From a virus: 36,529 bases of DNA. Below are positions 2,627 through 36,529 of the stretch, piece by piece. Each line of letters begins with the position of its first letter. Position 1 is the first letter of the stretch. The notes beneath the pieces are model-generated. The model did no database searches and was not told where the DNA came from. It was given only the letters and a program-made list of their open reading frames with translations. Location of the stretch: IMG/VR virus record IMGVR_UViG_3300028399_000017, positions 1 through 36,529 of that record, one strand, 5' to 3'. The position numbers and the translations under genes are program-made.

Positions 2627-3544
2627 GTGTCATCTCCACAGCTAGAGGATGGATACACGCGAATCGCCAACGATTTGCTGGACGCCATCTGCCATTTTTC
2701 GTTCACAAAACGACAAATGAAGGTACTTTTTGTCGTGATGAGAAAAACATACGGCTATAACAAATCAACTGACGACATGACAAATAGCCAGCTAATTGAG
2801 GCGTGCGATCTGGACAAATCCGCAGTTTCTAAAACGATATCAGAGTTAAAATCGATGCGTGTTTTGAATGTTTCTGGCGGAAAATACGGGTACGTTTTAG
2901 GCGTCAACAAACACTACAAAAAATGGATTCAGTTGTCAAAACAACAACAGAAATCAGTTGTTAAAATAACAACCAGTTGTCAAAACAACAACAACCCGGA
3001 GTTGTTAAAACGACAACAGGTAGTTGTTAAAACGACAACTGGCGGTTGTCAAAATAACAACTCGGAGTTGTTAAAACGACAACCACAAAAGACAATCCCA
3101 AAAGACAACTCCAAAAGACAACTCCAAAAGACACTTGCAGCACGGCCTCCGCCGCGCTCCGCTGAAAAAAAATCCGCTGACAAAAAAAAATCAAAAACAG
3201 CAGATGTGTGGTCGGCATATTCGGCAGCGTATTTTTCGAGATACGGCGTCGATCCGGTTCGCAATCTGACGGTGAACAGTCAGCTATCAAATTTTATAAA
3301 ACGCGTTCCGCTTGACGAGGCCCCACACATTGCGGCATTTTACGTTACCCACAACGACATGTTTTATTTGAAAAAGGGGCACGCGGTTGGACAGCTGCTA
3401 GCCGACGCTGAAAAACTCAGGACCGAGTGGGCGACGAATCGAACGATCACAACGACGAGGGCGCGACAGGTTGACGAGAAGCAGTCGAATTTTGACGTGG
3501 TGCAAGAGGCATTGCGTTTGGACGAGCAGGAGGGGAGACTTTGA
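2627..3544 (+). CDS. Phage replication protein O-like initiator
   Basis: A 305-residue protein. Residues about 5-100 match the phage replication protein O N-terminal winged-helix layout (LEDGYTRIANDLLDAI, FTKRQMKVLFVVMRKTYGYNK, then DKSAVSKTISELKS). The middle (about 100-190) is low-complexity, rich in Q, K and N, because it is encoded by the iteron array. The C-terminal part is probably the partner-binding domain. The start is GTG at 2627, four bases after the regulator stop, with a weak AAGG upstream. As in lambda O, the origin appears to lie inside the gene, so the protein would bind its own coding region. A TTG-started partner gene overlaps its stop. Confidence 0.85.
   Translation: MSSPQLEDGYTRIANDLLDAICHFSFTKRQMKVLFVVMRKTYGYNKSTDDMTNSQLIEACDLDKSAVSKTISELKSMRVLNVSGGKYGYVLGVNKHYKKWIQLSKQQQKSVVKITTSCQNNNNPELLKRQQVVVKTTTGGCQNNNSELLKRQPQKTIPKDNSKRQLQKTLAARPPPRSAEKKSADKKKSKTADVWSAYSAAYFSRYGVDPVRNLTVNSQLSNFIKRVPLDEAPHIAAFYVTHNDMFYLKKGHAVGQLLADAEKLRTEWATNRTITTTRARQVDEKQSNFDVVQEALRLDEQEGRL
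2932..3083 (+). repeat. Seven 17-bp iterons inside the initiator gene (putative origin)
   Basis: Seven copies of the near-palindrome GTTGTYAAAAYRACAAC begin at 2932, 2957, 2976, 3001, 3023, 3045 and 3067. Spacing settles at 22 bases for the last copies, about two helical turns. They lie in the middle of the replication O-like gene, the position of the lambda origin. An A-rich stretch follows at about 3166-3198 and could be the unwinding element. This is the expected binding array for the initiator. Confidence 0.85.
3087..3138 (+). repeat. Four tandem 13-bp repeats next to the iterons
   Basis: Four head-to-tail 13-mers (AAAAGACAACTCC and variants) start at 3087, 3100, 3113 and 3126. Each contains GACAA, the half-site of the iterons, so they may be weaker or single-sided initiator sites. 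Since 13 is not a multiple of three, the repeat shifts codon phase through the unit, which suggests selection on DNA rather than on protein. Confidence 0.7.
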
Positions 3545-7661: not shown

Positions 7662-8153
7662 ATGCCCGCAACAGTAACGATTAATGAGAAAAATGGTGTT
7701 GGTGAAGTGGCCACCGACAAAACTCTGGGAGCTATCCGCTATCAGTCTATCGATTCTGCGGCCGTCGATCTCAACAACCCGATTGACATCCCCGCAGCCG
7801 GTTCTGTTTTCTCGTTCCAGAAATATTTGAGAGCGACCGCAGGCGGAACTTTTACTCAGCTGTCTAACGCGAGATTCTATACCGGTGGTGCCGGTGATGC
7901 ATTCTCGGCAGGCATTGATACATGGGTTAAGGCGGTCGCGGCATATGCGACACCGGTCCAGGAAACAGACTCCGCGACATACGCGGACATGTTTAGTTAC
8001 ACAAGCGCCGCGCCGTTGAGCCTTGGTGCTGGCCCGTTTACATCACTGGGCGAATTCGGCGATTACGTTGTTTCGGCTGCCGAGGTGTCATCAACTGCAA
8101 GTAGCGGCGTCGAGACAGCAAAGACGATCACTTTCGGATGGGATGAAATCTAG
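7662..8153 (+). CDS. Hypothetical virion protein, 163 aa
   Basis: A 163-residue Ala/Gly/Ser/Thr-rich protein with the beta-rich composition of virion accessory proteins (GAIRYQSIDSAAVDLNNPIDIPAAGS). No catalytic motif or membrane segment is present. It lies eleven bases after the LamG gene, with GAGG before its ATG, and four bases before the next small gene. The cluster suggests a co-expressed set of fibre or decoration proteins. The family is not recognised. Confidence 0.55.
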   Translation: MPATVTINEKNGVGEVATDKTLGAIRYQSIDSAAVDLNNPIDIPAAGSVFSFQKYLRATAGGTFTQLSNARFYTGGAGDAFSAGIDTWVKAVAAYATPVQETDSATYADMFSYTSAAPLSLGAGPFTSLGEFGDYVVSAAEVSSTASSGVETAKTITFGWDEI

Positions 8154-27227: not shown

Positions 27228-28814
27228 TCAAATATCAAAAAATCCGCGAGACATGCGCGCACGCGGTGCATAGAGCATCATAGCCGAATCCGCGAGATTC
27301 GGCGATAGGGAACCTTCAGGCTGTTTGTCCACCAGTATTTTCCCGTTTCTCAGAGTGTAGGTCGGCTGTGATAATTCCGTGCATAGTCGCCTCAATTCTG
27401 TCAATTTGCTGCTCAGCGATATAATGTTTTCCGGGTCGTATTCAGCACCATTGACTGCGCGGAACGTGTCGCGAAATCGCAGACGCAGGCTCCACCAGGA
27501 CTGCTCTTTCCAGTTTGTAAAAAAATCTTTATTACTCCTGCCAGGCACCATTTCATCATCAGGATCAACAATTTCGCCCGAACCACGGAACTGCACCACC
27601 TCTATGATCCGCTGCCCTGCGTCCTCTCTGCGCTCGTTTATGACGCGGGCATCTCCGCGAACACCCGCCCCCAAACCGTCGCCGTCGTAGTGAAACAGCG
27701 GGTAATCGTGGGTGTCGGCTATAAGAAAACAGCGTTCGACACTGTCAAAAATATCGCTGGTGTCTTTGCTGCCGCTCCACGATTCGATGTGATCCAGCAG
27801 TATGCCGTGACGACCTGCAAACGCGTTTTTGTCGCGCCCCTGATCTGCAACGTCGAACGCGCCCTCTCTAGCACCCGTCGGCTCGATACCTAGTTTTTCA
27901 TGTGCATCAATCGCGGCCTGCACCCACGCCGAGGGGATGATTATGCCTTCCTTTGAGGCGTTGAAATCTAGGTCAATCTCCTGGGCAACAGTTACTGGAT
28001 CAAGCTCGTCCAGCTGTTTGTCGTACCACGCCTCGTCTTTTCGCGGGTCGTCGCGCCAATGGAAAATAAACTGTCTGATTTTTCCGGCCAGTATTTTTTC
28101 GGCAAACGGGTTGTCAGAACCGTTTGGAGTCGATATGTCGGCGCGGCAGTTGGTGGTTGCTGACAGCGACGCCTCGGCTATGTGGGGACGCTCCAAGTGA
28201 GCACTTTCGTCAACGAAATAAAACGCCGTTCTATCTCCTCGACCAATCTCGTCGCCACATTCGCCCGTTATGCAGGACCCCGTGCCTGGTATCGTGATGC
28301 GCATTTCAGGGGCGTGTTTTCTCTCGTCGAATCCACACCTAAACTCGGGCGGTATATACCTCAAAAACATACGGGCTTTATATAAAAGCGCCTTCGGGTG
28401 CCCTATCCTATCAACGTATTCTTTTTTTCTGCTGCCGAACCCTGCAACAACGCCATCATTAAACAGGCACACCGAGCACGCCACGCCAATTGACAGCCAT
28501 GACAGGCCCATATCCCTAGATTTCATAGTGATAAACGGAACGCCGTCACTCCACGCGCCCAAAAACTCGTCGATCCATTCGCGTTGGCGGTCGAACAGCA
28601 GGAACGGCACCAGCGCCGGAAGGCCGCGCTCGATATTTCTGGGGTCAAAAGTCACGCCCCAGTCATCGATGAACTGGGCAATGTTGTGTTTGTAGTGGTT
28701 TTTGAGCAGGGGAACCTGCTCGGGGTTCTCGCGCAAATACGCTAGACGTGCAACGCGCTCTCTGAATATCGGGACATAATCAGGGTTTTTGAAATCAAAA
28801 TCAGCCCGAGCCAT
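27228..28814 (-). CDS. Terminase large subunit
   Basis: A 528-residue packaging motor. The ATPase domain has a Walker-A-like KSRDMGLSW (98-106) and a Walker B FYFVDESAHL (198-207) with its glutamate. The RNase H-like nuclease begins with GAFDVADQGRDKNAF (about 319-332; D321, D324), followed by HYDGDGLGAG with a second acid. It drives DNA into the head and cuts concatemers. It overlaps the small subunit by 14 bases. The ATPase motif lacks a classical GKT, which is common in this phage group. Confidence 0.92.
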   Translation of the reverse strand: MARADFDFKNPDYVPIFRERVARLAYLRENPEQVPLLKNHYKHNIAQFIDDWGVTFDPRNIERGLPALVPFLLFDRQREWIDEFLGAWSDGVPFITMKSRDMGLSWLSIGVACSVCLFNDGVVAGFGSRKKEYVDRIGHPKALLYKARMFLRYIPPEFRCGFDERKHAPEMRITIPGTGSCITGECGDEIGRGDRTAFYFVDESAHLERPHIAEASLSATTNCRADISTPNGSDNPFAEKILAGKIRQFIFHWRDDPRKDEAWYDKQLDELDPVTVAQEIDLDFNASKEGIIIPSAWVQAAIDAHEKLGIEPTGAREGAFDVADQGRDKNAFAGRHGILLDHIESWSGSKDTSDIFDSVERCFLIADTHDYPLFHYDGDGLGAGVRGDARVINERREDAGQRIIEVVQFRGSGEIVDPDDEMVPGRSNKDFFTNWKEQSWWSLRLRFRDTFRAVNGAEYDPENIISLSSKLTELRRLCTELSQPTYTLRNGKILVDKQPEGSLSPNLADSAMMLYAPRARMSRGFFDI

Positions 28815-29304
28815 CTTTTTCTAGCATTTGCTGATACGCCCTTGCAGCAGCAACAGGGTCGTCGGGGATGTTTTTCGTGGTGATCGGCTCGGCATCTGGA
28901 TCGCCGCCGATCAGGTGTTTTACCGCAGCATGATTGCCGTCCATCCGGTTTATTTCAGACAACGCTGATACTGTGCCGGCAATGCTGACTGGGATAGAGT
29001 TACCAAGTGCGTCATTTTTTATTTCCAGCCCCAGGTTTGCGGCCTGCGCGAGCATCGATTTTATCTTGCTTACAGACAGTCCAAACTCCTCCTCAGACTG
29101 CGCCAGGAGCTTGTCACGCAGCGTTTTAATCCTTTTCTGAACCTTCTCGCATTTATGGAACGTTGATGCCTTTGAGTGGACCGTAGCAGGAAGCGCCGTC
29201 GTATCAGGAAATACTGCCCGAAAAGCGCGTGTCTGGTCCCCGTTTACAATAAAATCCTTGGCGTAGGTATCCGCCTCAACGTCAGTTGGTCGCATCTGGC
29301 TCAT
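28801..29304 (-). CDS. Terminase small subunit
   Basis: A 167-residue protein with an N-terminal helix-turn-helix (PTDVEADTYAKDFIVNGDQTRAFRAVFP, about 6-33), the layout of the small terminase family, and a long helical oligomerisation region (about 45-90). Residues 130-167 are a proline/aspartate-rich tail (DPDAEPITTKNIPDDPVAAARAY). It recognises the packaging site and hands DNA to the large subunit. It is the first gene of the late leftward operon. Confidence 0.82.
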   Translation of the reverse strand: MSQMRPTDVEADTYAKDFIVNGDQTRAFRAVFPDTTALPATVHSKASTFHKCEKVQKRIKTLRDKLLAQSEEEFGLSVSKIKSMLAQAANLGLEIKNDALGNSIPVSIAGTVSALSEINRMDGNHAAVKHLIGGDPDAEPITTKNIPDDPVAAARAYQQMLEKDGSG

Positions 29305-29354
29305 GATGCGGTCCCGTGTGTTTTTTTATTCTCCATGGCGCTGATTCTATGCGG

Positions 29355-29379
29355 AAAAGCGCCCCGTGAACAGGGGCCT
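29355..29379 (-). terminator. Rho-independent terminator, leftward
   Basis: On the minus strand the stem GCCCC-TGTTCAC-GGGGC (29377-29361) is followed by GCTTTT. It lies between the stop of gene 29383-29592 and the small terminase start, so it separates early leftward transcription from the late operon. A second overlapping stem, GGCGCT/AGCGCC, adds to the structure. Confidence 0.65.
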
Positions 29380-29382
29380 TAA

Positions 29383-29592
29383 TCATGCAACGATATCCAT
29401 TACTTTCTTGCACGCAACTATTCTTCCCCCGAATCTCGCCCTTAGCATCAACGCCTTTGCCGCAGCCTCCCCCGGATCGGTTCCTATTCTGCTATACACG
29501 TACTGCTCTTCCCCCTTGCTGTCAATTACTGACGCGCAGTACCCAAAGTTCCCTTGCCTTCTGTCAAAGCTTACCGATATTGTCGCTTCCAT
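29383..29592 (-). CDS. Small hypothetical phage protein, 69 aa
   Basis: A 69-residue protein (MEATISVSFDRRQGNFGYCAS...). Its pattern of strands then a helix (GEAAAKALMLRARFGGRIV) suggests a compact alpha/beta fold. The function is unknown. It is the last early leftward gene before the terminator at 29355-29379. Only two bases separate it from the upstream gene stop, so the two share a transcript. Confidence 0.6.
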   Translation of the reverse strand: MEATISVSFDRRQGNFGYCASVIDSKGEEQYVYSRIGTDPGEAAAKALMLRARFGGRIVACKKVMDIVA

Positions 29593-29594
29593 CT

Positions 29595-29972
29595 TTATCC
29601 CTTTTTCTGCTGATTGTTCATGTCGCGGCTGGCATCGCTGCTCATTGTGATCAGATTGCAGATCATCGCCTTTGTAACGCGACCTTTAAGGCTCTCAGAT
29701 GCTGCAACAAACGCTTCAACTTTGCTTGTATCCTTGTCTGTATTGCGCTCAATAGTGATTTTTTGGCTTGCAACCAAGCGCGAAAGCTTTTCCTTGAGTG
29801 CGTCAAGCTTCATCCAGGCATCAGGATGAACTTCTTTTCTTTCTTTTTTTTCTGGCTTTGCAAAGATGGCTTTATACCCAGCTCTTGCTTGATTCAATTC
29901 TGACTCGCTGGCCAGGCCAATGCTCAAGCCCAGGAAGTCATCGCAGTAGTCTTCGAAAGTCAATTTAGCCAT
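29595..29972 (-). CDS. Hypothetical early phage protein, 125 aa
   Basis: A 125-residue charged helical protein starting MAKLTFEDYCDDFLG. I chose ATG 29972 because AGGAAAAAG lies just upstream. The longer reading from 30005 begins MAPNSKTRKKK, which recurs almost unchanged before gene 32244-32516 and is probably an untranslated leader. The region about 45-110 (KKERKEVHPDAWMKLDALKEKLSRLVASQK) is a likely coiled coil. It is driven by a strong promoter at 30024-30052. Function unknown. Confidence 0.6.
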   Translation of the reverse strand: MAKLTFEDYCDDFLGLSIGLASESELNQARAGYKAIFAKPEKKERKEVHPDAWMKLDALKEKLSRLVASQKITIERNTDKDTSKVEAFVAASESLKGRVTKAMICNLITMSSDASRDMNNQQKKG

Positions 29973-29976
29973 TTTC

Positions 29977-30053
29977 TTTTTCCTTGTCTTTGAGTTTGGG
30001 GCCATTCCCTAACTTCTGAATCTATTATATACCCGGTGTGTACGAATTGCAAG
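29977..30053 (-). repeat. Duplicated promoter-leader block, copy A
   Basis: This 77-base block (promoter plus untranslated leader) is nearly identical to 32521-32597, differing at only a few positions. It spans the ribosome binding site, the apparent MAPNSKTRK leader and a consensus sigma70 promoter. The repeat shows recent duplication of a transcription start module. Confidence 0.8.
30024..30052 (-). promoter_or_regulatory. Consensus sigma70 promoter for gene 29595-29972
   Basis: On the minus strand TTGCAA (30052-30047) and TATAAT (30029-30024) are separated by exactly 17 bases. Both hexamers are close to consensus. Confidence 0.75.
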
Positions 30054-30090
30054 GGGTTTTTAGACTATTACAGTAATTTTTTCCCATCAG

Positions 30091-30285
30091 CTAAACGACT
30101 GACAAAGCAGCTTTTCCGCTTCTCGAGATCAATTTGGCTGAGATTACGCGCTCAACCCACCGAGCAGCGGTTCTTTCTGTCACACCGAAATGTGACGCAA
30201 CTTTGCCACGAACCTGATATTCGAATTGAACATAGGTTTGCGAGGAGATAAAAGAGGCGACTTCTTTGGCGTTGAATTTAGTCAT
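30091..30285 (-). CDS. Small HTH-like DNA-binding protein
   Basis: A 64-residue protein from ATG 30285 (MTKFNAKEVASFISSQTY), preceded by GGAGAAAACATC. The segment VRGKVASHFGVTERTAARWVERVISAKLISRSG (about 26-58) is a helix-turn-helix of MarR/winged type. It may regulate early genes. The longer frame to 30393 runs through the promoter. It lies between two of the repeated promoter modules. Confidence 0.66.
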   Translation of the reverse strand: MTKFNAKEVASFISSQTYVQFEYQVRGKVASHFGVTERTAARWVERVISAKLISRSGKAALSVV

Positions 30286-30324
30286 GATGTTTTCTCCGTT
30301 GCGCTTGTTAATGTCTATGGGCTT

Positions 30325-30353
30325 ATAGTATATCCATCGGGCACGCATTACAA
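30325..30353 (-). promoter_or_regulatory. Sigma70-like promoter for gene 30091-30285
   Basis: On the minus strand TTGTAA (30353-30348) and TACTAT (30330-30325) are spaced by 17 bases. The upstream block TTTATCACAAAA...AAAATTGCCTT (about 30357-30386) recurs at 32600-32629, so this is a third, more diverged copy of the promoter module. Confidence 0.6.
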
Positions 30354-30450
30354 GGGATTTATCACAAAATCCAGAAAAAAATTGCCTTTTCACTCGCTCC
30401 TGATCTGCGTTATATTCGTCGCCTCTAATGTTTGAAAAGGATTTTTATCG

Positions 30451-30681
30451 ATGAGCGGCCCGCAACCTGGAACAGTCGGAAACACACTTTCAACATTAAC
30501 GCTCATTGCGATAATCTACAGCATATCCGCGCTGAACGATTTCCGAGAGACGATGGCGGCGCATCAGCATAATATTGCTGTGATATCCGCCAACCAGCGC
30601 GTGCACGCAGAGAAACTATCAAATCACGACAGACGAATAGCGAGGGTCGAATCAGAAAAATGGGCAATAAAACAACAGTAA
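30451..30681 (+). CDS. Single-pass membrane protein with coiled coil
   Basis: A 76-residue protein (MSGPQPGTVGNTLSTLTLIAII...). One hydrophobic segment at about residues 10-28 is followed by a charged helix (about 30-70) with heptad character (ALNDFRETMAAHQHNIAVISANQRVHAEKLSNHDRRIARVESE). This is the shape of small phage lysis or holin-associated proteins, including spanin subunits, but no lipobox is seen. AAGGA precedes the ATG. It overlaps the next small gene by 22 bases on the rightward strand, an island inside the leftward early region. Confidence 0.6.
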   Translation: MSGPQPGTVGNTLSTLTLIAIIYSISALNDFRETMAAHQHNIAVISANQRVHAEKLSNHDRRIARVESEKWAIKQQ

Positions 30682-30836
30682 CAGTGGGGGCAATCGCGGG
30701 CGCGATTGCTTCAATCGGGTGGTGGACAGCGAGCGAATTCGCGGGGATTAACGCGCCGGAGGCAATCGTTGCATCTAGCGTTGTCGTCGTGACGGCGCTG
30801 CTGTCGTTCGTTTTGCCAACAAAAACAGGCGGTTAG
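30660..30836 (+). CDS. Short hydrophobic holin-like protein (58 aa)
   Basis: A 58-residue frame MGNKTTVTVGAIAGAIASIG... ending KTGG, with two hydrophobic stretches (about 5-22 and 36-53). It overlaps the 3' end of gene 30451-30681. The size, the two hydrophobic segments, the short charged ends and the lysis context fit a class II holin. The M15 lysin lies about 3.4 kb away on the other strand. Function is inferred from shape only. Confidence 0.55.
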   Translation: MGNKTTVTVGAIAGAIASIGWWTASEFAGINAPEAIVASSVVVVTALLSFVLPTKTGG

Positions 30837-30858
30837 CTCCGCCCCAGCGACAAAATGG

Positions 30859-30876
30859 CGGGGCCCTGCGACCCCG
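30859..30876. terminator. GC-rich hairpin between convergent genes
   Basis: CGGGG (30859-30863) pairs with CCCCG (30872-30876). It lies between the rightward holin-like gene and the leftward lipase gene, so it could stop both. The following T-run is weak. Confidence 0.4.
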
Positions 30877-30888
30877 TCAATAATTTCA

Positions 30889-31629
30889 TTAAAATAACCT
30901 TACGTTCTGCCGGAGAATCCTTTCCCGGATACTGTCAATGTACGCCTCCGGGACGTGGTTTTTCATTATCAAATCTCTTAAATCGTTGCCTTTTGCAGCT
31001 CTGATAAAATGACGCAAACGCAGCCACCACGGCTCTTTTTCGCCGACAAATATAGCTGGCGTGTCATGTTTGTAGCCCAGTTTTCCGCCTGGTAATTTCA
31101 CGACCGGATCGCCGTATTTTACGACGCGAAAAAACTCGACATTCGAGACCTGTTTTTTAGACGGAACATTGCTCACACGCCACCCCGTCATTGTCATCGG
31201 AGCGCCGAACGTCATGCATGTTATCGGAACGCCTGACGCAATAACCGGGCTGAAGAAATTTTCCAGCAGAATCTCCAGCAGCGCACCACCTCGACTATGC
31301 CCTGCCATAAAAACCCGCTCAGGGTTCGAGGCCAGAACGCTGTTCATAATGCCGTTGGCCATGCCGTGCAGCCCTCGATAGAACCCTGAGTGGAAATCAT
31401 TCGTTGGTTGAAATGCGACATTATTTAGCCAATCCTCGGCGCTATCTGATCCGGCTATTGCCACCATCGCGACGCCGTTTTTCACTGCAACGGCAGCGTG
31501 ATCGTCTGCTCCAGCCGCTGTAGACCTGAATATTTCCACACCCGTCACGGATGGCAACTTCGACATGTCATAAGCCGCGTTTGCCAATAGCATTGCGTCA
31601 ATCATTTCTCGATTTTTTTCTGTATACAA
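30889..31629 (-). CDS. Class 3 lipase-like protein
   Basis: A 246-residue alpha/beta-hydrolase. GHSRGGALLEI at 110-120 holds the nucleophile S112, KYGDPVVKLP holds D174, and MKNHVPEAY holds H225. The spacing matches the class 3 (Rhizopus-type) lipase triad. No signal peptide is visible at the N terminus, so it is probably cytoplasmic unless released at lysis. It may act on host lipids during lysis or infection. A lipase gene is unusual for a phage of this size. It begins just after a small HTH regulator gene. Confidence 0.75.
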   Translation of the reverse strand: MYTEKNREMIDAMLLANAAYDMSKLPSVTGVEIFRSTAAGADDHAAVAVKNGVAMVAIAGSDSAEDWLNNVAFQPTNDFHSGFYRGLHGMANGIMNSVLASNPERVFMAGHSRGGALLEILLENFFSPVIASGVPITCMTFGAPMTMTGWRVSNVPSKKQVSNVEFFRVVKYGDPVVKLPGGKLGYKHDTPAIFVGEKEPWWLRLRHFIRAAKGNDLRDLIMKNHVPEAYIDSIRERILRQNVRLF

Positions 31630-31633
31630 TTTA

Positions 31634-31894
31634 TTAGCCTCTTTTTGTTTGCTGATCGCCCGCCTCGTGCGCGAGCATTTTCTCCATGACTACAGGCTCA
31701 TTTTCGTGAAGCCAGACCATGCGCCGCAGCAGTGTCGCTGCGGCTTTGTTTATTTTCCGCTCTCCTCGCGCCCACTTGTTCCAGGTGGAACGCCCGGAAC
31801 CCATGAGAGATGCCATTTCGTTGATCGAGAGGCCCAGTGCTTTCTGGGTCTCAAGGACATCTTCTGCGCTCATGTTTAGGTTTTTGCTTGCCAT
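31634..31894 (-). CDS. XRE-type HTH transcriptional regulator
   Basis: An 86-residue protein from ATG 31894 (MASKNLNMSAEDVLETQKALG). GGTGAG lies just upstream; the longer reading adds four codons. The stretch LGLSINEMASLMGSGRSTWNKWARGERKINKAAATLLRRM (about 20-59) is a classical XRE helix-turn-helix. It could repress early promoters or control the lipase gene, which starts four bases after its stop. It is the only other clear HTH besides the Cro/YdaS-like regulator. Confidence 0.75.
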   Translation of the reverse strand: MASKNLNMSAEDVLETQKALGLSINEMASLMGSGRSTWNKWARGERKINKAAATLLRRMVWLHENEPVVMEKMLAHEAGDQQTKRG

Positions 31895-31905
31895 GATCTC
31901 ACCCA

Positions 31906-32187
31906 CTATTCGCCGCTACAATCAAGCACTGACGGCACCCAGCCGCACAATTCTAGCGCCCACATTGATTCAACAGAGCTGTTGATCACATCTGTCGGCC
32001 TGCTGTCGTAAATTTCCCTGCTAATTGTCACTGGCTTTCCGGCGCTTGCCATAGTTCTAGCGCTCTCTGCCTGCAAAACAATATCGCCATCCTTCTTTTC
32101 GTATACAGCGACCTTTATCATTTTGAATAATTTTCCGTGACCGTTGCATTCCAGGCCTATTCCAGCGTATTTGATAAATTGTCTCAT
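31906..32187 (-). CDS. Hypothetical early phage protein, 93 aa
   Basis: A 93-residue protein (MRQFIKYAGIGLECNGHGKLFK...). I used the second ATG, at 32187, because GAGG lies about seven bases upstream of it and almost touches the first ATG. Short beta strands followed by a helix are visible; there is no known motif. A strong GC hairpin lies directly upstream. It is part of the leftward early operon that ends at the lipase. Confidence 0.58.
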   Translation of the reverse strand: MRQFIKYAGIGLECNGHGKLFKMIKVAVYEKKDGDIVLQAESARTMASAGKPVTISREIYDSRPTDVINSSVESMWALELCGWVPSVLDCSGE

Positions 32188-32205
32188 TTCCATTTCCTCT
32201 TTTTA

Positions 32206-32227
32206 CCCCCCCCTCCATCAGGGGGGG
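32206..32227 (-). other. Poly-C/poly-G hairpin
   Basis: Eight C (32206-32213) and seven G (32221-32227) flank the loop TCCATCA. It lies between gene 32244-32516 and the ribosome binding site of gene 31906-32187. It may slow or partly terminate transcription. Its runs are also likely to vary in length. Confidence 0.4.
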
Positions 32228-32243
32228 CGAAAATCACGGGTGG

Positions 32244-32516
32244 TTATTTCTTGGCTTCAACGACGGCACAGGCTGCTGTATCAACATTCAAACAGATTAT
32301 GCCAAGGTCACGTATCAGATCGTTGTTCACCTTTTTTTCAGCAGACGTGTCATAAATGACATTCTCTTCGTTGTCGTTACCGCTGTAAATTTTCATTGAT
32401 TTAACATCGATGATGTCATCAGAATCAACATAAGTTTCGGCTTCAATGTTGAGCTGTAGGTCAACGCTGACACCGTTGAAAGATGCGTTTACTGTGTAAG
32501 TAGTTTCTACGATCAT
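32244..32516 (-). CDS. Hypothetical early phage protein, 90 aa
   Basis: A 90-residue acidic, beta-rich protein starting MIVETTYTVNASFNGVSVDLQ. I chose ATG 32516 by analogy with the copy A leader; the upstream MAPNSKTRKNK frame is the duplicated leader. It carries a consensus promoter at 32568-32596. It has no recognised domain. The near-identical upstream regions suggest it and gene 29595-29972 are expressed together although their proteins are unrelated. Confidence 0.6.
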   Translation of the reverse strand: MIVETTYTVNASFNGVSVDLQLNIEAETYVDSDDIIDVKSMKIYSGNDNEENVIYDTSAEKKVNNDLIRDLGIICLNVDTAACAVVEAKK

Positions 32517-32520
32517 TTTA

Positions 32521-32597
32521 TTTTTCCTTGTCTTTGAGTTCGGGGCCATTCCCTAACTTCTGAATCTATTATATACCCGGTGTGTACGAATTGCAAG
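32521..32597 (-). repeat. Duplicated promoter-leader block, copy B
   Basis: This block is the second near-identical copy of 29977-30053, with the same promoter, transcript start and leader. It extends upstream into the TTTATCACAAAA element shared with the third module at 30357. Confidence 0.8.
32568..32596 (-). promoter_or_regulatory. Consensus sigma70 promoter for gene 32244-32516
   Basis: On the minus strand TTGCAA (32596-32591) and TATAAT (32573-32568) are separated by 17 bases, exactly as in copy A. A-rich sequence upstream (about 32600-32629) resembles an UP element. Confidence 0.75.
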
Positions 32598-32653
32598 AGG
32601 TTTATCACAAAACCCAGAAAAAAATTGCCTTCATTAAATCAGATGATGGACCA

Positions 32654-33034
32654 TCATCTCCACGACAATTCGTTGATTTGCTTACGGAGGTACCCCACCT
32701 CTTCTTTTAGTTGCTCGTTCTCGAGAACTAAATCCTGATTCAGATCGCGGACGATTTCCTCTTTATTGTTTCTGTAAATGGCCTGCCGCAACTCCTTGTA
32801 GTCATACTGATGATTGGGTTTTCCGCCGCCGTACCCTTTAAATCCGTCCATCAACGCTTCGCGGTAATTGCTCCAATGGTCGCTTTCTACGTAATAACTA
32901 ACGTCACAATATAATTCCCCCATTACCTCATCAATCAGCGATAATAATTTTGGCCTAAAGCTGTCCATTATTTTTTGCGCCTCCTCCTTCCCTTGCTCTG
33001 TGAGCTCTGGATAAAGTGGATATTCTTCGCTCAT
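32654..33034 (-). CDS. Hypothetical early phage protein with C-terminal coiled coil
   Basis: A 126-residue protein. The N-terminal part (about 1-60) is acidic and aromatic, and residues 85-122 form a coiled coil (NKEEIVRDLNQDLVLENEQLKEEVGYLRKQINEL). It is probably oligomeric. No enzyme motif is seen. GGAGG precedes the ATG. It lies downstream of the recombination genes in the leftward early operon. Confidence 0.6.
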   Translation of the reverse strand: MSEEYPLYPELTEQGKEEAQKIMDSFRPKLLSLIDEVMGELYCDVSYYVESDHWSNYREALMDGFKGYGGGKPNHQYDYKELRQAIYRNNKEEIVRDLNQDLVLENEQLKEEVGYLRKQINELSWR

Positions 33035-33081
33035 TTCCGTACCTCCATTAAAATCAATCCGGCCTAAGCCGTTTCCTGAAA

Positions 33082-33255
33082 CTATTTTTTACAAACCCCT
33101 GGCGAGCTATGGACGTTAAAATAAACGTTGCCAATAGTCGATTTTTCCACGTCCTCGATGATCGCCTTTGCGAGCGCTGGGCGGCCGGAATCAATCGCCG
33201 CGAGCGCTTTTCTTAGACACTCCTCCAGGGTTTTTCCACGATCCAGCTCATCCAT
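33082..33255 (-). CDS. Small hypothetical protein, 57 aa
   Basis: A 57-residue frame with ATG at 33255 and TAG at 33082-33084, running MDELDRGKTLEECLRKALAA and ending in GVCKK. GGAGG lies nine bases upstream. It overlaps the stop of the gene above by eight bases, which supports coupled translation. It is helical at the start and has no recognised motif. It has strong coding features despite its size. Confidence 0.55.
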   Translation of the reverse strand: MDELDRGKTLEECLRKALAAIDSGRPALAKAIIEDVEKSTIGNVYFNVHSSPGVCKK

Positions 33256-33826
33256 TTTCTGCCTCCTGGGCTAGTTTTTCGAACTCTGGCCAGTGTGGGT
33301 TGAGAATTTTTTTCTCCTCCCTCTCAAGCCCAAGCCACCAGGTTTTCAGGTTTTCCACCCCCCCCATCGCCGCGTCTTTTGCCCTCGATTTCAGTGCCAA
33401 AATATCCGGACCTTCATCATCTGCGGGGAATGGCAGTATGGTGAATGGCACTTTTACATGCCGCGAAATTGCCATCATGAATGTGACGGGGGCGGATATC
33501 TCTGCGTGTGATATCTGTATCCCACCAGCCGCTTTTCCTGCGTAAATCACATCAGGGTTTCGGAATAGCCGTATTTTTTTTCCTATCCATCCGCTGCGTT
33601 TTTTCCCAAAACACAAAATGAGACCGACGCACATGCCTTTTGCCGGGATGTACGGCATATGCGGAGGAATCGCAATTTTTGCTTTTTCTCCCCTTCCGTT
33701 GCCAGCGATTTTTGTCACTGCCGTAATTGTCACGTCAATCGGCTCTATGAGCAGGTCGTCAGCGTTCAGACGATCTGAATTCACGGCGATTGTCCCCGTC
33801 ATGTCATCGTCATCAATCGAATTCAA
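33248..33826 (-). CDS. Recombination-associated phage protein (partner of exonuclease)
   Basis: A 192-residue protein. Residues about 18-110 (RLNADDLLIEPIDVTITAVTKIAG, then FRNPDVIYAGKAAGGIQISH) match a beta-rich domain seen in many phages beside exonuclease and single-strand annealing genes. The C-terminal region is helical (about 145-190). I infer a single-strand DNA-binding or annealing-support role from its place next to the PD-(D/E)XK exonuclease, whose stop overlaps its start by 14 bases. Confidence 0.62.
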   Translation of the reverse strand: MNSIDDDDMTGTIAVNSDRLNADDLLIEPIDVTITAVTKIAGNGRGEKAKIAIPPHMPYIPAKGMCVGLILCFGKKRSGWIGKKIRLFRNPDVIYAGKAAGGIQISHAEISAPVTFMMAISRHVKVPFTILPFPADDEGPDILALKSRAKDAAMGGVENLKTWWLGLEREEKKILNPHWPEFEKLAQEAENG

Positions 33827-34877
33827 TTTCTGCCTCCCCTGGGTCGTACAGATACCACGATGGGTAATCTACGTCCCTCATTGCTGCGTGATCCAGCTCC
33901 GTCACCCACGGTGTGTCAGTCCCGAATTTGCTCATGAAATGCGAGTACGCACTAATGGCGTCTGTGATAACCGAGGCGCTCCGAGTGCTGATATCCGTGC
34001 GCACGAATTTGCCGGGCCGCTCGATGTCCTCTTTTTTCTGCTCGTAGTCGCGAACGAGAATGTTCGGCGTTCCTGATGACTGCATGAACAGCCACTGGAA
34101 CGTAAAATCTCCGTCATAATCGAACGGCAACAATTTTGCACCCTGCGCGATCCGGGCCGCGCGCAGATACCATTCTGCCTGAACTGTCATCATGCGCCGC
34201 CCGATTTCTGAATGACAGCACTCGCGGAAAGGGACGCAATTTTTATTGGCAACATTTTTCAGATCAAGGACGATGCCGGGGGCCAGAAAATCGAGGCGCG
34301 CTTTGCAGCTAATTCCGCCATCCTCCCACAAAATCGTGACTTCAGGATGCCCTCCAGAATCTCGCAGTGGACCAACAATCTGCGCGGACTGTTTCGATTT
34401 CTCCAGCGCGTCGGCGTACTCGTTCTGCGTCAGTATTGTTTTCCCGCTATCAGTTGCGTCGGCTGCGTAGTCCTGGGTCAGCGTCGGCCATAGCGCCGGT
34501 GTGTTTATCCCTGATGATTCGCAGTATTCCGCGATGCGCTCGCACAAAACTTTTTTCGTGCCGCCAACCTTCAGGTCGTGGCGTTTGCACCATGTTTTTA
34601 GATCGTCATGAGAATCCAAAACGTCATCAAACATGGTTTTGTCGAGCGCCGGGGTGTATTTTTCGCGGAGTTTCTCAACGCCTTCGAGAGCCGCTTTGTG
34701 TTTCGCGCTCCCGTTCATCTGGGCGCGGGTGCCTGATTCTGATTTACCAGGCCCGTAGATTTTATGCCAGTAGTCCAGCGGTCCAGTGTTCAGCAATTTT
34801 ATCCCGCTGGCCGACAGCGCTGGGATGGCATGATAGTCGTCCTCCGGCATGTCGAGAATCAGCTTAACGTTTTTCAT
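33813..34877 (-). CDS. PD-(D/E)XK exonuclease with inserted SAP-like segment (exodeoxyribonuclease VIII-type)
   Basis: A 354-residue protein. The N-terminal EDDYHAIPALSASGIKLLNTGPLDYWHKI is typical of the DUF3799/RecE-type exonuclease. The catalytic core is visible at GISCKARLDFLAPGIVLDLKN (about 190-210), giving the D-(x)n-DxK metal site. HSEIGRRMMTVQAEWYLRAA supplies the Q-Y motif. A SAP-like insert (DDLKTWCKRHDLKVGGTKKVLCERIAEY, about 91-118) lies between the N-terminal part and the core. It probably resects double-strand ends for recombination. Confidence 0.82.
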   Translation of the reverse strand: MKNVKLILDMPEDDYHAIPALSASGIKLLNTGPLDYWHKIYGPGKSESGTRAQMNGSAKHKAALEGVEKLREKYTPALDKTMFDDVLDSHDDLKTWCKRHDLKVGGTKKVLCERIAEYCESSGINTPALWPTLTQDYAADATDSGKTILTQNEYADALEKSKQSAQIVGPLRDSGGHPEVTILWEDGGISCKARLDFLAPGIVLDLKNVANKNCVPFRECCHSEIGRRMMTVQAEWYLRAARIAQGAKLLPFDYDGDFTFQWLFMQSSGTPNILVRDYEQKKEDIERPGKFVRTDISTRSASVITDAISAYSHFMSKFGTDTPWVTELDHAAMRDVDYPSWYLYDPGEAEIEFD

Positions 34878-35074
34878 TGCTCGGCCTCCGCGCTCGCCCC
34901 TGCGTCCTCCACGGGAACGTTATCGCCCAGCATTTCCAGCAGATCGTCCTGAGTTGCCACGCGGACCTCGTGCGTGTCCAGCGCTACATGTCGAAGCGCC
35001 TGCTGGCGATTGTTCCCGCGAACCAGGCGCTTGGCCTGCCCATTATCAACCACATAAATCGTTTTTCGTCCCAT
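34874..35074 (-). CDS. Hypothetical early phage protein, 66 aa
   Basis: A 66-residue protein from ATG 35074 (MGRKTIYVVDNGQAKRLVRGNNRQQALRHVA), with GAGGA upstream. The first 45 residues resemble small recombination-region proteins; the tail is acidic. It overlaps the exonuclease start by four bases. It opens the recombination operon directly downstream of the inverted repeat at 35132-35212. Function unknown. Confidence 0.62.
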   Translation of the reverse strand: MGRKTIYVVDNGQAKRLVRGNNRQQALRHVALDTHEVRVATQDDLLEMLGDNVPVEDAGASAEAEQ

Positions 35075-35131
35075 GATATTTTCCTCGTTTTGCGTTAAAT
35101 CAACTGCCAAATTTTAGGCGAAAAAAAACCC

Positions 35132-35212
35132 AGAAATTAGGCGGTCTGGTGGCGAGCAGGATTGTGATAGACAAGGAAAAAAAACACAAACCGCACAGAC
35201 CGCCTAATTTCT
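35132..35212. other. Perfect 17-bp inverted repeat around a 47-base loop
   Basis: Positions 35132-35148 (AGAAATTAGGCGGTCTG) and 35196-35212 are exact complements. On the minus strand the structure ends in GGG followed by eight T, so it may be a terminator or attenuator for gene 35251-35469. It separates that gene from the recombination operon. Unlike attC arms, it has no unpaired bases. Confidence 0.6.
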
Positions 35213-35250
35213 AGGCTTTTCCCTTGTTTTAACTGACGCCACATCAGACA

Positions 35251-35469
35251 CTAAACACCATATATTTTCTCCTCCCCGTTGTCCAGAGATTTTTTGTTTT
35301 TTACTAAAAAAAGCGTCTGGTTTTTTGTTGCATTCTCCGCCCGTTTCTGCCTGATGCATGCAGCGTGGATTTCATTTAAATGATGAAGCGCGGCGCGTCT
35401 CTCTGTCTCCGTGTCCGCGTTGCATAGTTCGTTATCGAGTCGCTCTATTGTTTTTTTTAGACTGTTCAT
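35251..35469 (-). CDS. Small helical protein, 72 aa
   Basis: A 72-residue helical, charged protein (MNSLKKTIERLDNELCNADTETERRAALHHLNEIHAACIRQKR). It looks like a short coiled coil followed by a basic tail. No family is recognised. It is the right-most gene that still belongs to the phage by context. A perfect hairpin, GCTATGC/GCATAGC, lies upstream at 35493-35513. Confidence 0.55.
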   Translation of the reverse strand: MNSLKKTIERLDNELCNADTETERRAALHHLNEIHAACIRQKRAENATKNQTLFLVKNKKSLDNGEEKIYGV

Positions 35470-35543
35470 TTTCTGATCCTCGTTTGTTTTTTGCTATGCC
35501 GACTCTGCATAGCTCTGGGCTATACGGATTCTGGATAATATAT

Positions 35544-35557
35544 GTTAGGCGTTAAGC
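35544..35557 (+). other. Orphan R'-type integron core sites (GTTAGGC then GTTAAGC)
   Basis: GTTAGGC (35544-35550) and GTTAAGC (35551-35557) are two adjacent R'-like boxes with no matching R'' to their left. CTGGAT at about 35531-35536 is the complement of ATCCAG in attC-like site C (757-762). The leftward gene stops inside the second box. Confidence 0.5.
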
Positions 35558-35773
35558 CCAGCTATAAGCTTTATCAAGCAAGTCGTCAATTTTGCTTAAC
35601 TCATAAATACCTTCTAGGTTCGGCTCGCCGCCATACTGCGGAACCTCGCTCAGGTGGTAACGACCAGCAATTAGCTGAACCTCTCCACCGCTTTCTTCAG
35701 ACCAATTTATATATGCTGTATCACCCTCCTCCATTAGCAAAAGCGTATTTTTATCAGTGGTTCTATTTGCCAT
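35552..35773 (-). CDS. Hypothetical cassette protein, 73 aa
   Basis: A 73-residue acidic protein starting MANRTTDKNTLLLMEEGDTAYINWSEES. I used ATG 35773 because GAGG lies upstream and because it follows the minus-strand core site GTTAGGC of attC E; the longer frame to 35848 would run through that site. The TAA stop lies in the R' box at 35551-35557. No recognised domain. It has the size and boundaries of an integron cassette gene. Confidence 0.62.
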   Translation of the reverse strand: MANRTTDKNTLLLMEEGDTAYINWSEESGGEVQLIAGRYHLSEVPQYGGEPNLEGIYELSKIDDLLDKAYSWA

Positions 35774-35797
35774 CTGTGCCTCATCACTTCGTAGCAC

Positions 35798-35883
35798 GCC
35801 TAACAAAACAAAATCAGTGTGACGGTCATACCGCAGCGCTATTTCCATTTACGTCACGCCGCACCTGTTTTGTGACGTTATGA
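35798..35883 (+). other. Integron attC recombination site E
   Basis: R'' GCCTAAC (35798-35804) and R' GTTATGA (35877-35883) bracket arms ACAAAATCAG (35808-35817) and CTGTTTTGT (35865-35873), with one extrahelical T on the left arm. GTGACG and CGTCAC extend the stem inward. The gene on the right stops inside R' and the gene on the left starts just outside R''. Confidence 0.82.
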
Positions 35884-36102
35884 AGAAAAGTAATCAACAG
35901 GATTAAATACCGGAACTTCCCCACATCGCCCACGCTCTGTATAAATGTACCCAGCTTTGATTTTGCTATTGATGCCGCCAACAAGAACATCACAGTATTT
36001 GTCGCCATCATAAGAAAGTGGCAGCACTTTACGCACTGGTGCAATTTTTCCCGGCGTATCCCCAAGTTCTACAAATGGGTAGTCAGTGAAAAAAACATGC
36101 AT
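35878..36102 (-). CDS. Hypothetical cassette protein, 74 aa
   Basis: A 74-residue protein (MHVFFTDYPFVELGDTPGKIAPVRKVLPLSYDGDKYCDVLVGGI). The mix of beta strands and a short turn suggests a small soluble fold. The ATG lies inside the R'' box of attC F (minus strand GTTATGC) and the stop inside R' of attC E, so the gene fills the cassette. No domain is recognised. Confidence 0.62.
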   Translation of the reverse strand: MHVFFTDYPFVELGDTPGKIAPVRKVLPLSYDGDKYCDVLVGGINSKIKAGYIYTERGRCGEVPVFNPVDYFSS

Positions 36103-36195
36103 AACAATTAGCTCCAGCCGACGTAGTGGCGTCGGGCTTTGTCGTTAAATTTAAAAATCAGTGCGCCCACTACGCGGCTGAGCACGGCGTTATGC
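36099..36195 (+). other. Integron attC recombination site F
   Basis: R'' GCATAAC (36099-36105) and R' GTTATGC (36189-36195) are exact complements. The arm GCTCCAGCCG (36111-36120) pairs with CGGCTGAGC (36175-36183) leaving one extrahelical C. The stem continues with GTAGTGG/CCACTAC. The plus strand closely resembles the classical class 1 integron consensus (TAACAATT...CAGCCGACG...GGCGTTATGC). Confidence 0.9.
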
Positions 36196-36196
36196 C

Positions 36197-36490
36197 TCAC
36201 ATCGAATTCAGTATTTTCATGCCCGCGTAAAACTGGGTTTTAGATGAGGCAAATTCCTTCTTTGCCTCATAGATGCGCTCACGCCACTGCTCTCTGGTTT
36301 GTAATGTGAGTAAAATCTGATCCCTGCTTAGCTCTCCGAATTCTTCACGCAATTGCTCTAAGCTCATTTCTGATATTTTTATTTTTTCAAATTCTACACA
36401 GCTGTCATCCCGGCTTGATGGGTAAATAGGACATGTTCTATTTGCTTTAAAACAAAAGAAACACTGACTTTTTTGTGGGGCACAAGGCAT
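36197..36490 (-). CDS. Cysteine-rich hypothetical cassette protein, 97 aa
   Basis: A 97-residue protein with an N-terminal cysteine cluster (MPCAPQKSQCFFCFKANRTC), which may bind metal, then a charged helical region (ISEMSLEQLREEFGELSRDQILLTLQTREQWRERIYEAKKEF). The ATG lies inside the R'' box of the truncated attC at 36487. The stop lies next to R' of attC F. No named family is recognised. Confidence 0.62.
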   Translation of the reverse strand: MPCAPQKSQCFFCFKANRTCPIYPSSRDDSCVEFEKIKISEMSLEQLREEFGELSRDQILLTLQTREQWRERIYEAKKEFASSKTQFYAGMKILNSM

Positions 36491-36529
36491 AACAAGTAGC
36501 TCCAGCGGACAAAATACCGCGTTGTTTAA
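36487..36529 (+). other. Truncated attC site G at window edge
   Basis: R'' GCATAAC (36487-36493) is followed by AAGTAGCTCCAGCGGACAA and CCGC, the left half of an attC. The right half and R' lie beyond the window. The array therefore continues to the right. Confidence 0.75.

Follow-up and report, generated by a model that had tools for sequence, protein, structure and literature searches.

The virus record IMGVR_UViG_3300028399_000017 (IMG/VR; 36,529 nucleotides (nt), analysed as a whole and called the window below) contains a repeated promoter-leader element among leftward, minus-strand genes. Its two full copies, A (29970-30059) and B (32514-32603), are 97% identical over a 90-nt stretch that starts shortly before the -35 box and runs to the ATG. 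Both have the order TTGCAA, 17 nt, TATAAT, leader, AAGGA and, 8 nt later, ATG, and both predicted promoters read leftward; all parts of the copies given below are on the minus strand. The copy A promoter occupies 30024-30052 (TTGCAA at 30052-30047, TATAAT at 30029-30024), with the Shine-Dalgarno AAGGA at 29981-29985 and the start codon at 29972. The copy B promoter is at 32568-32596, its Shine-Dalgarno at 32525-32529 and its start codon at 32516. The repeat stops at these two start codons.

The 29-nt TTGCAA-17-TATAAT arrangement, searched with up to three mismatches, occurs in the window only at A and B, and not once in 100 shuffles. No other site in 28500-36529 reaches the 10 of 12 promoter-consensus matches of A and B, in a scan that overall did not exceed chance (11 sites found, 9.1 expected). 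On the minus strand, a terminator scan gave no candidate immediately upstream of A or B. An AT-rich stem-loop of 8 bp upstream of B (32641-32659; -8.6 kcal/mol) has no T-run directly behind it and was not listed by that scan, and the copy A promoter stretch folds weakly (-3.9). A possible operator within the promoter spacer, TACACACCGGGTATA, is confined to A and B, so a wider regulon was rejected.

Copy A precedes a gene for a 125-amino acid protein (29595-29972) with no families in Pfam and NCBIfam and weak PHROG matches only. The gene behind copy B (32244-32516) encodes 90 amino acids and has family matches below cut-off only. A 64-amino acid protein resembling helix-turn-helix (HTH) proteins is encoded at 30091-30285, behind the partial copy C, with sub-cut-off matches to HTH_23 and HTH_28. 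None of the three reaches a family cut-off in Pfam or NCBIfam, and blastp finds no similarity among them at an E limit of 1. The stretch behind promoter B (31634-32516) holds two small open reading frames (ORFs) and then an HTH gene, and one may speculate that this layout recalls anti-CRISPR operons.

Copy C (30325-30389) has a diverged promoter, TTGTAA-17-TACTAT, and the 17-nt spacing requires the -10 to be read as TACTAT. The 36-nt T/A-rich element upstream of the -35 in B (32597-32632) is identical to C at 32 positions and to A at 19, and A and C likewise agree at 19 of 36. Between -35 and -10, C agrees with A and with B at 19 of 29 positions each, and in the leader at 16 of 48 each. Over the 65 nt of upstream element and core the best match of C is B (51/65), then A (38/65), against a background of 33/65; the core alone is hardly above its background of 18/29. 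The three appear to be a mosaic, in which A and B have the promoter and leader in common and B and C the upstream element. The first-pass annotation had described near-identical A and B blocks as a duplicated module before unrelated genes; the blocks prove longer than it claimed, and the proteins behind them are indeed unrelated. Its count of three copies goes too far, since the leader of C is not shared and its core lies near background; what C keeps is the A-rich element that the annotation had assigned to both B and C, and the 17-nt spacing with the -10 read as above.

If transcription starts 7 nt after the -10, where +1 was placed (near 30017 in A and 32561 in B), the leader would run from stem-loop through A-rich spacer and Shine-Dalgarno to ATG. 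The predicted RNA of A and B begins AGAAGUUAGGGAAUGGCCCC(A/G)AACUC, and the leader folded alone gives a stem-loop from +4 at -6.9 kcal/mol. Its sequence is AGUU-A-GGG-AAUGGC-CCC-A-AACU in A (29993-30014) and AGUU-A-GGG-AAUGGC-CCC-G-AACU in B (32537-32558). A hairpin near the 5' end forms in seven of the eight leaders folded. Rfam has no match in the window, and none up to E=5 in 29900-32700; literature searches gave no title on this leader. The stem-loop was absent from the first-pass annotation.

Relatives of the leader occur in unrelated phages. A BLAST search with copy A against 50,697 phage records (E at most 10) gave 62 records, one with a significant match: an intergenic 41 nt of Aeromonas phage phiA047, 87.8% identical (E=4e-5), covering the -10 and the leader. 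A weaker match in Aeromonas phage PhAER-3 (E=0.2) covers the same parts and lies before a small gene. Successive pattern scans of viral_contigs returned contigs L007 and L008, then L008, L009, L010 and L011, then L008 and L010. The pattern with the leader 6-mer found four contigs and the one with a scrambled 6-mer none; L011, one of the four, was set aside, since its hairpin is a different one. Leader queries led to MyoSmar and TropicalSun, to KLEP7, and to Smarc4 and 4L372D. The carriers comprise the Aeromonas phages phiA047, PhAER-3 and 4L372D, Serratia phage Smarc4, MyoSmar, Pseudaeromonas phage KLEP7 and uncultured phages. A near-exact promoter pattern had no match in viral_contigs. Plasmid matches (four records, 37 nt, E=4) were taken as chance, as was the one Lachnospiraceae contig (L015) that a second pattern found in genome_contigs, where the first found none.

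The covariance model R1, built from five leaders, and R2, built from 12, both match copy A, which is in both training sets. R1 found two leaders outside its training set and unseen by any pattern, KLEP7 51736 (GGTTAGG...CCTAACC) and G003 7961 (GGTTGGGG-ATTGG-CCCCAACC), both behind -10 boxes with 9-10 nt between -10 and stem; its other new weak matches mostly have no promoter. R2, run over 21 records, gave 40 rows at E up to 5. The 20 rows at E up to 0.1 represent 19 places and the opposite strand of one palindromic copy, 12 of the places being training leaders and seven others. Five of these seven lie behind a -10 box: PhAER-3 113319, 114797 and 115179 and Smarc4 33704, which are behind -35/-10 pairs, and a TropicalSun place that is the near-identical orthologue of the MyoSmar one. 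Among the 20 rows above 0.1, eight stand behind a promoter as judged by eye (phiA047 104893, five 4L372D sites, and the irregular L007 and L009 leaders), and the rest have no promoter or are opposite strands. Matches with no promoter, PhAER-3 79949 among them, were not counted as modules.

The place of the stem-loop behind the -10 is nearly fixed. A fixed promoter test (-10 with at least 5/6 matches, 6-8 nt before the model start, and TTG at 16-18 nt) is passed by 14 of the 17 leaders of alignment A5, compared with 0.025-0.44% of all positions in eight sequences; many of the 14 were originally found via their -10, and the model finds are the clean part. MyoSmar has a -10 only, and both Smarc4 copies fail, with the stem 1-3 nt closer. 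Several carriers hold more than one promoter-linked copy: the window two, phiA047 three, PhAER-3 five, Smarc4 two and G003 two; KLEP7 has one and a weak one, and MyoSmar, TropicalSun and G001 one each. 4L372D has five promoter-linked sites of two types, some of which are repeats within the record. The first-pass annotation had proposed a search for the block beside other small genes; this check is positive for the promoter-leader family, whose members precede other small genes in several phages, but the exact block is not found elsewhere in viral_contigs.

With the exception of an orthologous pair and a paralogous pair, the genes compared behind the other copies are unrelated as well. Fourteen proteins behind promoters, compared all against all at an E limit of 1, gave a sole match below E=0.1, between phiA047 100221 and 4L372D (89%). 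The leaders measure 44-59 nt with the ATG included. Both G003 copies, at 7961 and 11986, precede paralogous genes (MAKTVNYTPEM...), as read from the translations, so there the cassette and gene appear to have been duplicated together. Searches of viral_contigs for relatives of the A and B proteins gave 2 and 12 pattern stretches, none of them confirmed.

The stem has changed on both sides across the family. Alignment A5 places 17 leaders in register by means of N pads, a register that leans to structure, and in it 84.4% of cells are paired over 8 positions. Two-sided changes occur in 13 cells against a shuffled mean of 4.8, with none of 500 shuffles as high, and versions slid out of register score far lower than the true one. 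The outer pair changes from G-C to A-U, the inner one from G-C to C-G, and the junction position is A-U, C-G or G-C, being mismatched in 10 of 17 leaders. The irregular leaders L007, L009 and KLEP7 51012 are in alignment A1 and were excluded from A4 and A5, as was 4L372D, a near-duplicate of a phiA047 leader; G001_10106 was retained despite its outer pairs mis-registering. On this comparison the two-sided changes support a stem.

On balance we favour reading A and B as two copies of a self-contained early-expression cassette, a sigma70 promoter with a 5'-terminal, mRNA-protecting hairpin, that has been duplicated and exchanged among phages. Host sigma70 RNA polymerase would start at TTGCAA-17-TATAAT, and the first ~25 nt of the transcript would fold into a stem-loop at its extreme 5' end. 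The A-rich spacer would then present AAGGA and the ATG at about +46. The hairpin most likely shields the early mRNA from decay that depends on the 5' end (RppH/RNase E), and a small gene behind the cassette would in this way be expressed strongly in early infection. As the cassette stops at the ATG and is independent of the gene, it could serve unrelated genes, and duplication and exchange by recombination would bring it to them. The relatives in other phages support a reusable expression module at the level of a family. The first-pass annotation had gone further, to a mobile or duplicated module that recruits new genes; mobility and recruitment are an inference, and no mechanism of mobility was found.

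Several results weigh against this reading. The energies of the A and B hairpins are by themselves unremarkable (z -1.0 and -1.2), so the case for the hairpin rests on the relatives. When 62 nt of coding sequence are included, the hairpin is gone from the best fold of copy A, in which the Shine-Dalgarno is paired (unpaired 0.25); copy B keeps its hairpin, and in copy A a hairpin that is the first to fold as the RNA is made may avoid this outcome. The leader of copy C gives no hairpin on folding. Related copies inflate the A5 cell counts; the four pairs with a two-sided change are an unexceptional number, reached by 132 of 500 shuffles, and further pair types do not stand out strongly (42/500). 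Conservation of the loop letters goes beyond what protection alone would require. Two of the seven non-training R2 places, G003 26503 and phiA047 93523, have no promoter and were set aside. The records were chosen for holding a match, so the copy counts give no prevalence, and a single 36-nt query had no match in E. coli genomes (28 billion bases), which is a weak test.

The conservation of the loop suggests that the leader could instead be a regulatory binding site that tunes several early genes together, either a DNA operator of dyad form shortly after +1 or an RNA stem-loop to which a phage or host protein binds. Aca2, a regulator of anti-CRISPR operons, recognises an RNA stem-loop. The loop letters (AAUGG, AAUAG, AAAGG and similar) and the GUUAGGG half are conserved beyond what pairing needs, and the HTH gene in the operon behind copy B (31634-31906) has sub-cut-off Xre-like, MqsA and Aca2 matches. 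Against this, the window HTH protein has no homologue in the eight other carrier records (1/9, the window itself), and PF08965 (Aca2) is found in 0 of 9 records, in a search that covered the window HTH and Aca2 regulators only. A loop length that varies from 4 to 6 and some G-U pairs suit RNA better and speak against a rigid DNA dyad. We consider a binding site unlikely as the main explanation, and the conserved loop letters may still leave room for a binding protein. A little less probable is that these are ordinary strong early promoters, made alike because selection favours the sigma70 consensus and an open leader, with A and B a local duplication of no wider meaning. T5-like promoters, too, carry letters of the TATAAT-(A/T)GATTCA type, followed by a leader that begins AAUUAGGGAA, and such a hairpin is missing from most of the promoter-like sites listed for phiA047 and PhAER-3. 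The phiA047 match, however, extends through the leader, where the sigma70 consensus demands nothing, scrambling the leader 6-mer abolishes the pattern matches, and the stem changes are compensated; judged by these sequence results, ordinary promoters are an unlikely account.

The mosaic of A, B and C and the several copies per genome in several carriers would also fit a site that serves chiefly for recombination, short repeated homology for swapping genes between copies with expression secondary, a role with which T4-type promoter early stem-loop (PeSL) cassettes are credited in PMC4503421. Against it, no close relative of the window phage was found in which exchange could be looked for, and we regard this explanation as improbable. 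Least credible of all is a coding leader, in which the ATG of the hairpin loop would be the start codon and both proteins would gain MAPNSKTRKKK. In A and B, and by reading in one Smarc4 copy, this frame is open and runs in phase with the gene; yet most of the 17 aligned leaders have no loop ATG, a stop interrupts the frame in the second Smarc4 copy, also by reading, and AAGGA sits 8 nt before the downstream ATG.

The cassette with its promoter and leader hairpin resembles several known systems. PeSL cassettes of T4-type phages were reportedly described by Arbiol in 2010, and the title of a 2014 paper calls them promoter-terminator motifs. Their stem-loop, going by title, is a terminator. The likeness lies in the make-up, a short intergenic cassette that joins a host-type early promoter to a stem-loop, and in its repetition before and between small genes, as in the window, phiA047, PhAER-3 and Smarc4; the sigma70-type promoters of A and B are predicted ones. 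The conserved stem-loop here, in contrast, would lie inside the 5' end of the transcript. The window copies have no terminator joined to the promoter, whereas several Aeromonas-phage copies have one. The window phage is not T4-type by its terminase and portal neighbours, and the taxonomy of five carriers names no T4-type family, the PhAER-3 and Smarc4 records giving none. The cassette appears to work like a PeSL but is not classed as one, because the window copies have no terminator part and the phage is not T4-type. PeSLs are tied to gene shuffling in PMC4503421 and PMC3950731.

A terminator-like hairpin stem that holds the -35 (TTGCA or TTGCT), followed by the -10 and the leader hairpin, is seen at PhAER-3 111099, 113319, 114797 and 115179, phiA047 104893 and 4L372D 6293. 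The five of these hairpins tested fold at -8.6 to -21.8 kcal/mol. In several copies of these three Aeromonas phages the 5' arm contains the TTGC(A) of the -35, and in some a T-run lies in the spacer, so that PeSL-like and leader-hairpin parts appear to be combined there.

A 5'-terminal stem-loop reportedly slows mRNA decay in E. coli (Emory 1992; Bouvet and Belasco 1992; both cited in PMC3997798). Like the ompA, papA and T4 gene 32 leaders, the leader of A and B would have a stem-loop a few nt from its predicted 5' end and a Shine-Dalgarno behind it, with covariation in favour of the stem; it differs in sequence and in recurring as a family, joined to near-identical promoters, across several phages. 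A T4 leader with an mRNA-stabilising effect is cited in PMC8948821. The archaeal virus HGTV-1 has promoter-inverted-repeat motifs before many ORFs in one genome region, according to PMC3950731; the likeness of a conserved promoter and inverted repeat before ORFs is one of description, and that promoter is of archaeal TATA type. The T5-like early promoters (P16-17 before rnaX, Salmonella phage 5, AJ604531) have in common with the family TATAAT, letters of the (A/T)GATTCA type or ATATTCA, and a leader that begins AATTAGGGAA, but the leader departs after ~15 nt and R2 finds no match there. In T5-like phages (L022 1-100, L023 500-600) P16-17 precedes rnaX ('stable RNA with unknown functions') with a family-like leader starting AATTAGGGAA(C/T)AGCGAGCCGATT. 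Regulation of the Aca2 type differs from the case here in the absence of PF08965 from the nine carrier records, the window HTH protein having only its sub-cut-off match.

The window encodes myovirus-type proteins (tail sheath, tape measure, baseplate wedge, portal, terminase) and an O-like replication protein. A short ORF matching a phage repressor family suggests a temperate-type phage, a label for which an integrase was sought in general scans only. The window terminase is closest to the one from Burkholderia phage Magia (61%), and the portal to those of Leptolyngbya and Pseudomonas 66-kb phages. The 2.9-kb region of the copies has no match in named phages, and the search for a close relative covered this comparison and viral_contigs searches with the A and B proteins and the terminase; the terminase search gave one distant contig, L003, with no R2 match. 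Within the O-like replication gene, 22-nt repeats (AACAAC.../GTTGTT; 2943-3074) are probably origin iterons. A Lipase_3/esterase-like gene (30889-31629; Pfam above cut-off, PHROG esterase/lipase) lies among the leftward genes. Upstream of copy C and between leftward genes, two small overlapping rightward ORFs with membrane-like sequence (30451-30836) are possible lysis genes, as judged by eye. A 25-nt inverted repeat, 92% complementary with its arms 47 nt apart, lies between early ORFs (35124-35220), and a 35-nt direct repeat (77%) lies near both record ends (747-781 and 36490-36524).

A broader and more speculative proposal, to which we give little weight for now, is that an as yet undescribed family of stem-loop leaders on sigma70 early promoters, joined in Aeromonas phages by an overlapping terminator with the -35 in its stem, travels between unrelated temperate-type and large phages as a ~60-90-bp cassette, and that a common host factor recognises the conserved loop and so favours the messages. 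The cassette itself would extend the idea of mobile promoter cassettes from T4-type to other phages and bring a conserved RNA element into the transcript. Should the hairpin stabilise early mRNA, the cassette would mark strongly expressed early orphan genes, which would be good candidates for host-takeover or counter-defence proteins, and with the covariance model such genes can be found.

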